In this document: piece after piece, positions 46,638-47,362 of the stretch
Position numbering within the stretch: position 1 is the stretch's first letter
Layout of the letters: each line of letters begins with the position of its first letter
Source of the DNA: Candidatus Avelusimicrobium pullarium
GTDB taxonomy: Bacteria; Elusimicrobiota; Elusimicrobia; Elusimicrobiales; Elusimicrobiaceae
NCBI GenBank assembly: GCA_944323745.1
Contig: CALUTQ010000001.1
Span: forward strand, 372,001 to 436,000
Length of the DNA stretch: 64,000 bases
Direction: 5' to 3'
Program-made: the position numbers and the translations under genes
The notes under the pieces: generated by a model
Told to the model about the DNA's origin: nothing
The model's database searches: none
What the model saw: only the letters and a program-made list of their open reading frames with translations

Positions 46638-46711
46638 TGGTTCCGGGACTAGGACTCGAACCTAGAATTAATGCTCCAGAGGCATCCGTGTTACCATTAC
46701 ACCATCCCGGA
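46638..46711 (-). tRNA. tRNA-Gln (CTG)
   Basis: Minus-strand cloverleaf: acceptor TCCGGGA/TCCCGGA, anticodon stem GATGC/GCATT with loop CTCTGGA giving anticodon CTG, T loop TTCGAGT. The 3' CCA is encoded, unlike in the other four tRNAs of the window. Confidence 0.92.
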
Positions 46712-46788
46712 TCAACATTTATATTTTAGCATTTGCGGCGGCGCGGCGCAAGGGGCCGGCCCGCCTACTGGCTAAAATAAATAAAAAA

Positions 46789-47122
46789 TCTGCGCCCAAT
46801 GGGGACTTGCCTTCCGGTAAAATTCCTGACGGAATTTTCCTGCAGGCCGGGCTCGCGGTTTTTGCCTTTCGCCTTCGGCTCAAACAAAAACATCGCTGCG
46901 CCTTTCAAGTCCGGCCGCGGGCAAAGCAGTTTGCCCGCTTGGGCACATAAAAAAATCTGCGCCCGAGGGGGACTTGCCTTCCGGTAAAATTCCTGACGGA
47001 ATTTTCCTGCAGGCCGGGCTCGCGGTTTTTGCCTTTCGCCTTCGGCTCAAACAAAAACATCGCTGCGCCTTTCAAGTCCGGCCGCGGGCAAAGCAGTTTG
47101 CCCGCTTGGGCACATAAAAAAA
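46789..47122 (-). repeat. Tandem 167-bp repeat downstream of tRNA-CAU
   Basis: Two units (46789-46955 and 46956-47122) identical except for a few bases near their left edge. Read on the minus strand each contains an inverted repeat gcgggcaaa/tttgcccgc and another aaaattcc/ggaatttt, and ends in gggcgcaga, the same end as the tRNA at 47125-47198. The last ~27 bases of each unit resemble a decayed T arm plus acceptor. I see no convincing coding frame in the gap 46712-47124. Confidence 0.9.
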
Positions 47123-47124
47123 TC

Positions 47125-47198
47125 TGCGCCCACCAGGACTTGAACCTGGAACCCACCGATTATGAGTCGGTTGCTCTAACCGATTGAGCTATAGGCGC
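47125..47198 (-). tRNA. tRNA with CAT anticodon (elongator Met or Ile2)
   Basis: Minus-strand cloverleaf: acceptor GCGCCTA/TGGGCGC, D arm GCTC/GAGC, anticodon stem ACCGA/TCGGT with loop CTCATAA, T arm CCAGG/CCTGG with loop TTCAAGT, discriminator A, no encoded CCA. It lacks initiator features. Elongator Met and lysidine-modified Ile cannot be told apart by eye. Confidence 0.9.
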
Positions 47199-47290
47199 GG
47201 AACTTATTTTATTATAACAAATTACCTTGGCCTCTGCCAGACGGTGAACAAAAATATAAACCCGACAGTAAAATTGCTACAATAAAAATA

Positions 47291-47362
47291 CGGGGCATGG
47301 CCCAATGGTAGGGCGTCCGCTTTGGGAGCGGAAGGCTCCCGGTTCGAGTCCGGGTGCCCCGA
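47291..47362 (+). tRNA. tRNA-Pro (TGG)
   Basis: Acceptor CGGGGCA/TGCCCCG with the C1-G72 pair and A73 typical of tRNA-Pro, D arm GCCC/GGGC, anticodon stem TCCGC/GCGGA with loop TTTGGGA (anticodon TGG), T loop TTCGAGT. CCA is not encoded. The C39-like gene begins 14 nt later, so the two may share a transcript. Confidence 0.94.

Follow-up and report, generated by a model that had tools for sequence, protein, structure and literature searches.

The tRNA-Met Locus

The window, i.e., the whole stretch of 64,000 nucleotides of Candidatus Avelusimicrobium pullarium DNA analyzed here, carries on its minus strand an array (46783-47116) of two 167-nt units, 46783-46949 and 46950-47116, that are 99% identical; a 16-nt partial third copy at 47117-47132 runs into tRNA-Met(CAT). 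Since this tRNA is itself encoded on the minus strand, the array lies 3' of the tRNA in the tRNA's own sense (Table 1). Each unit is closed by GGGCGCAGA, the 3' end of tRNA-Met itself, which is preceded by a T-loop-like CAAGTCC and followed by a T run. A preliminary description of this DNA had reported two near-identical 167-bp units directly behind a CAT tRNA, their ending in the tRNA 3' end with a T-arm-like stretch, and two strong inverted repeats per unit; all three points are borne out, the inverted repeats being the hairpins HP1 and HP3, and an extra stem, P2, lies between them. In an Rfam search of the window, the tRNA alone reaches the cut-off of its family; at a permissive threshold, the array yields the tRNA and four other matches, all four below the gathering scores of their families.

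Table 1. Features of the tRNA-Met array, with positions in the window.
Feature	Position	Strand	Basis
Host tRNA-Met(CAT), intact	47125..47198	-	ARAGORN; Rfam tRNA 72.8 bits
Unit 1 antis1, complement of tRNA acceptor 3' strand	47107..47114	-	Sequence; antis1 nearer own tRNA over 104 elements
Unit 1 hairpin HP1, splitting the tRNA-complementary stretch	47084..47105	-	Inverted repeat; 908/914 cells Watson-Crick over copies
Unit 1 antis2, complement of T-stem 3' strand and T-loop	47071..47082	-	Sequence; own-tRNA comparisons
Unit 1 conserved core: helix P2, variable hairpin, HP3 (GUCA loop), GGAAGG end	46977..47070	-	cmsearch R1 46977-47108, 149.9 bits (R1 training set included the window copy)
Unit 1 right copy, tRNA-Met C56 to 3' end, middle diverged	46958..46976	-	Sequence; right copies nearer own tRNA
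Unit 2 antis1	46940..46947	-	Sequence, 167-nt register
Unit 2 hairpin HP1	46917..46938	-	Inverted repeat, sequence
Unit 2 antis2	46904..46915	-	Sequence, 167-nt register
Unit 2 conserved core	46810..46903	-	cmsearch R1 46810-46941, 149.9 bits
Unit 2 right copy of tRNA-Met 3' end	46791..46809	-	Sequence

Distribution and Position of the Family

A search for the unit at other tRNA genes, which the preliminary description had proposed, was positive: in the same genome, the core also stands behind tRNA-Thr(CGT), as two tandem units, and behind tRNA-Leu(GAG), as one. By blastn, the core was found in all 37 genomes of the genus then searched and in 38 of 61 genomes in all. R1, a covariance model built from 31 copies, has matches in 60 of the 61 sampled genomes of the genus, in 94 of 247 sampled across the phylum Elusimicrobiota and in 20 of 76 genera. 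Recurrence behind two more tRNA genes of the genome and in nearly all sampled congeners argues that the Met array is not a product of chance. The literature searched gave no account of the Elusimicrobiota repeats.

Loci were fetched by their similarity to the core. An nhmmer search over 227 of them gave 244 matches in 200 loci, or 174 copies after removal of exact duplicates only; a named record and another genome may represent one species. A same-strand tRNA lies less than 1 kb upstream in 146 of the 174 copies, with 29 tRNA kinds represented, and within 115 bp in 119. Among the 28 copies for which no tRNA was called within 1 kb, a contig end lies at most 131 bp away in 18, and one more forms the second unit of an array at such an end; the other nine lie elsewhere. 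Upstream of five of them (L012, L029, L030 with both its units, and L215), tRNA 3' fragments are recognizable by eye; for one copy each in L072, L099, L125 and L152, the tRNA calls made include no tRNA nearby. The fragments (L012 1400-1460, L030 1240-1265, L215 1640-1675 and, with a degenerate 5' part, L029 1690-1770) look as if integration had split the tRNA from the element. Beyond the genus, 30 loci from 19 genomes were fetched (L198/L217 and L216/L222 overlap); a same-strand tRNA is present upstream in 25 of them and is lacking at L199, L202, L209, L215 and L226.

An exact 21-base core pattern occurs in at least 116 stretches of genome contigs, and 96 of 116 contain a profile match. Named records with both bear, for example, the titles Elusimicrobium, Elusimicrobiaceae, Elusimicrobiales, Avelusimicrobium or, in some cases, 'uncultured bacterium', and several come from animal guts. 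The 20 stretches without a profile match were taken as chance hits; the 15 of them among the 80 matches listed are all titled as other phyla. Viral contigs gave no match to the exact pattern, and a viral origin was rejected on this count. A coding role was rejected as well: the elements are 128-150 nt long (longest variant listed per element), and since their length differences are not divisible by three, no conserved reading frame is expected.

Tailored Ends

Read in the tRNA sense, the tRNA is followed by a tail, often with an intrinsic terminator, and then by antis1, HP1, antis2, the core (P2, a hairpin of variable length, HP3) and a sense copy that runs from C56 to the tRNA 3' end, called the right copy here. 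The 5' side of the unit is thus a complement of the last ~20 nt of the host tRNA (about positions 54-73), interrupted by HP1. Both sides are fitted to the tRNA at which they reside. When each copy is compared to 46 distinct tRNA 3' ends, its own tRNA ranks best or joint best in 88 of 104 cases when antis1 and antis2 are scored together and in 77 of 91 when the right copy is scored; these are the copies, out of 174, with a tRNA within 115 bp in which the needed parts were found. Taken singly, antis2 points to its own tRNA in 83 of 104 copies and antis1 in just 55 of 104. Mean scores for own as opposed to shuffled tRNAs are 5.46 vs 3.19 for antis1, 9.01 vs 5.56 for antis2 and 12.87 vs 5.64 for the right copy, with none of 200 shuffles as high. 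An arm of HP1 was also considered as a copy of the host tRNA and rejected, with means of 4.34 for own and 4.37 for shuffled tRNAs (n = 108).

The two ends do not behave simply as the strands of one conserved closing helix. At those of positions 57-63 where the right copy and the tRNA differ, antis2 fits only the tRNA in 98 of 103 cells, only the right copy in four and neither in one; the 5' stretch therefore follows the tRNA itself. In cells where the two agree, 461 pair, 10 are G-T and 63 are unpaired, 54 of the latter at positions 57 and 58; the comparison is ungapped, and right copies with an indel may fall out of register. The copied segment can extend further: among the 71 of 91 copies in which the right end could be located (it was not in 20), a copy of the tail lies beyond the right copy in 40 (alignment score of at least 15), and 18 score below 6. 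The junctions after C56 are ragged.

Opposite a CGAG in the T-loop (in E. coli tyrT, CGAA), the complement frequently has GAGAA where TCGAA would be the match, which leaves a tandem G-A mismatch in both phyla; this type is seen at L228 1665-1690 and in many Elusimicrobiota Leu, Gln, Asn and His copies.

The Fold and Changes in Its Stems

RNAalifold assigns 36 pairs to the element, 19 of which are kept paired through compensatory double changes. The window unit folds better than its shuffled versions (z = -3.1; one of 200 as stable) and the window tRNA together with the unit does so as well (z = -4.65; none of 200); in the latter predicted fold, the acceptor 3' strand of the tRNA pairs with antis1. 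A structured RNA derived from the tRNA precursor, the second option of the preliminary description, comes close to these results: it agrees with a fold that carries compensatory changes and with the annotation of RtT, the E. coli repeat discussed below, as RNA, while the RNA of the Elusimicrobiota copies themselves is a prediction.

The way in which the stems change complicates an RNA reading. Over 129 copies, 908 of 914 HP1 cells are Watson-Crick, with 233 alternative pairs, two G-T and no A-C; change with almost no G-U steps is unusual for an RNA helix and counts against RNA. All named stems together have 586 alternative Watson-Crick cells, 19 G-T and 11 A-C in the same copies, as compared to 465, 57 and 29 in the stems of 108 tRNAs from the same loci, a tally made by simple indexing that includes register errors.

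This scarcity of wobble steps fits turnover at the DNA level as well as it fits RNA. The repeat could be a DNA satellite, in which hairpins form readily between the tRNA 3' end and an inverted copy of it, template switching during replication maintains perfect inverted arms, recombination alters the number of units and RNA has no function. We consider this alternative possible but doubtful. The rarity of wobble intermediates is in its favor, as are the existence of truncated copies and the behavior of antis2, which follows the tRNA as a near neighbor and not the right copy. Against it stand the conservation, in other families of the phylum, of the core outside the stems, and the presence in helix P2 of tandem G-A in place of Watson-Crick pairs (37-38 of 129 copies), which argues for a selected fold.

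Copy Number and Movement Between tRNAs

Nearest neighbors by core sequence reside at the same tRNA kind in 38.7 of 96 cases, vs 8.1 after shuffling, which indicates that copies persist at a tRNA. The core also moves. A core tree requires 50 changes of tRNA kind (the least possible number is 15, the shuffled mean 64.4), and its starred branches force at least five changes for Leu(GAG); the tree was built from 99 columns, with eight of 87 inner branches starred and most forks unresolved. Within the genome of the window, the Leu and Thr copies differ at three of 89 core positions, and both of their ends differ, each fitted to its own tRNA. Similarly, two of 97 core positions distinguish the Met copy of another genome, G028, from a Val copy (L119).

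The number of units varies at a given tRNA. At the Met locus in window orientation, the two units of A. pullarium correspond in relatives to one unit and a fragment, one unit, a fragment (two genomes), or nothing; truncated copies are thus seen at this locus. Of 23 Leu loci in which the tRNA is visible, 14 carry a unit or a part of one, and nine lack a profile match, two of these with a remnant recognizable by eye. The setting of tRNA-Met itself is variable: between tRNA-Gln and tRNA-Pro, it is reversed in eight relatives (L243, L245, L249, L250 and L253-L256) as compared to L241 (window 46638-47362), and no element is present there. Two other genomes, G028 and G031 (L013, L015), have the reversed orientation yet carry the element.

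Presence in some relatives and absence in others at the same tRNA weighs against a role in cis, in which the complement would pair with the 3' third of the nascent tRNA and stop or delay its maturation, thereby controlling the tRNA operon. In favor of such a role, the complement covers about positions 54-73 and follows the tRNA, and the acceptor 3' strand pairs with antis1 in the predicted fold; against it, many copies sit behind a terminator. We judge cis control quite unlikely.

Candidate Mobilizing Agents

Three kinds of enzyme were considered as mobilizers, viz., reverse transcriptase, integrase and Y1 (HUH) transposase, and all were rejected because no tested family tracks the element. 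Comparisons were made between 19 element-bearing and 13 'element-free' genomes, the latter defined by having no match in the R1 survey of the phylum, which had stricter filters. Reverse transcriptase domains (RVT_1, PF00078) are found in five of the 19 and one of the 13, the genome of the window having one, and Y1_Tnp (PF01797) in nine of the 19 and seven of the 13, with no match in the genome of the window. Eight genomes have at least 14 R1 matches; of the seven tested, one (G069) encodes both RVT_1 and Y1_Tnp, and six lack each of them, which speaks against a retroelement and against a REP/RAYT-type arrangement. Tyrosine recombinase domains are present in all 32 genomes, with 2-11 per genome (mean 4.1) where the element is present and 2-5 (mean 3.2) where it is absent, i.e., the counts overlap. 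In the genome of the window, a reverse transcriptase domain is encoded no more than 1.7 kb from a tyrosine recombinase (G000:C1:811559-813213).

The T-loop of tRNA is modified. A chimeric retro-copy could arise if reverse transcription, starting from the 3' end of a tRNA precursor, stalled at the presumably modified T-loop and switched to the RNA of an element; the new copy would thereby obtain the tRNA 3' end together with its terminator. Right copies that begin at C56 in the T-loop, ragged junctions after this residue and tails copied along with their terminators (40/71) all match this route. The distribution of RVT_1 does not, including its absence from most of the copy-rich genomes tested, and retro-copying alone leaves the hairpin-split complement at the 5' side unexplained; we regard this route as very unlikely.

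Integrative elements of tRNA genes, which use a tyrosine integrase of the T-loop or 3'-end type, leave a copy of the tRNA 3' end at their far boundary. The Elusimicrobiota unit resembles them in this copy, but it has neither integrase nor cargo, occurs at many tRNA kinds and bears a complement at its near boundary. Attachment-site scars, the first option of the preliminary description, or mini integrative elements moved by a tyrosine integrase acting in the T-loop are the least probable origin of the family, since the far-side sense copies and the ubiquitous, slightly more numerous recombinases that speak for them are outweighed by a single core behind 29 tRNA kinds with fitted ends, a 167-bp unit that cannot contain an integrase, recombinases in genomes with and without the element at overlapping counts, and a complementary stretch left without a role.

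Comparison With RtT and Other Repeats

The repeats behind E. coli tyrT have long been known, without a wider setting. In K-12, they start with GGGGAAGGAT-GAGAA, which is complementary to the T-arm region of tRNA-Tyr except for a tandem G-A, and end in AATCCTTCCCCCACCACCA of tRNA-Tyr; the annotated RttR stops at that CCA. Among 12 further K-12 tRNA loci scanned, Rfam RtT is found in three (proK, the lys operon and lysV); the arg spacers give no Rfam match, and the RtT plan was read there by eye. Also by eye, RtT ends at the proK, lys and arg loci fit the local tRNA, and the proK and lysV repeats include a copy of the terminator. Strains differ in unit number: of 40 evenly sampled proK records, 15 match K-12 over all 701 bases, 17 are ~168 bases shorter, two are annotated with two RtT, and six are partial. 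Three genomes examined at this locus carry, respectively, one full and one truncated RtT (K-12), the same minus exactly one unit with the truncated one kept, and two full RtT. One study describes the release of RtT as RNA from the tRNA transcript and Northern signals for two RtT RNAs in Actinobacillus (PMC4986893), and another links RtT-like elements to BIMEs (PMC2965389).

RtT (RF00391) and the Elusimicrobiota family are both structured units directly behind same-strand tRNA genes (146/174 in the latter) that can occur as tandem copies. Both carry a complement of the host tRNA at the 5' side and, at the 3' side, repeat the tRNA 3' end in sense orientation, each fitted per tRNA (for RtT by eye, at Tyr, Pro, Lys and Arg). 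In both, the terminator may be copied too, and the number of units varies, for RtT between strains and in the Elusimicrobiota family between relatives. By contrast, the splitting of the complement by HP1, a different core and the phylum-wide spread are features of the Elusimicrobiota family; a small protein, tpr, is annotated inside RttR, whereas the Elusimicrobiota elements show no conserved frame. The RtT model found no match in the window, nor in the genome at E ≤ 0.01, while detecting its E. coli control, and R1 at E ≤ 10 found nothing at the arg locus or at two other E. coli loci in which Rfam matches RtT. As neither covariance model detects the other's loci, the two are regarded as sharing a plan and not as one homologous family. 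BIME/REP sequences of enterobacteria are likewise short, palindromic and gene-less, but the Elusimicrobiota elements are found behind tRNA genes and have tailored ends, and Y1_Tnp is absent from the genome of the window.

A Probable Structured Element of tRNA Genes

We favor, with a probability of roughly 60%, the view that the repeat is a structured element, devoid of genes of its own, that resides behind tRNA genes and is RtT-like in kind but of a separate family. Sequence comparison establishes the family, its location, tailored ends, folded core, changes in copy number and movement between tRNA kinds; we infer that recombination causes the copy-number changes, that the element is released as RNA, and that host enzymes act on it in place of a dedicated one. 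A complete tRNA remains upstream, and the host should for this reason not be harmed. Units would be gained and lost through recombination of the tRNA 3' end with its copies, and the core would occasionally shift to another tRNA gene, taking on the sequence of that tRNA at both ends. In read-through transcripts, the tRNA 3'-processing machinery would cut at the copied 3' end and set free a folded RNA. Many copies have a terminator between the tRNA and the element, as judged by eye, so transcription of the element would depend on read-through. Other points that weigh against this view are the scarcity of G-U steps in HP1, the fit of antis2 to the tRNA where the right copy departs, the preference of antis1 for its own tRNA in just 55 of 104 copies, the failure of the R1 and RtT models to detect each other's loci, the sparse resolution of the core tree and the 28 copies with no nearby tRNA call.

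A bolder extension assigns to the tRNA-complementary stretch the role of a guide: a protein-free mobile RNA driven by host enzymes would pair with a tRNA, or with its gene, in the 3' third, insert behind it and rewrite the guide from the new host tRNA, and gammaproteobacterial RtT and the Elusimicrobiota family would be two branches of an unrecognized, widespread class of tRNA-guided mobile elements. We think this unlikely. The recurrence of the E. coli tyrT plan, fitted ends included, in a distant phylum makes these repeats a class that obeys a testable rule, by which a core moves between tRNA genes and takes the 3' third of each tRNA; this offers a new view on the evolution of tRNA-gene surroundings and, in E. 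coli laboratory strains, which differ in unit number, a defined question about the rewriting of the ends and the making of the RNA.

At the Leu locus, a spare attachment site may be provided by the copied tRNA end. In the genome of the window, genes that resemble phage-head genes, as judged from translations only, lie between the right end of the Leu copy and a secG-like gene (L301 1475-4736, G000:C2). In another genome, G074 (L278), a similar flank joins the tRNA-Leu end directly.
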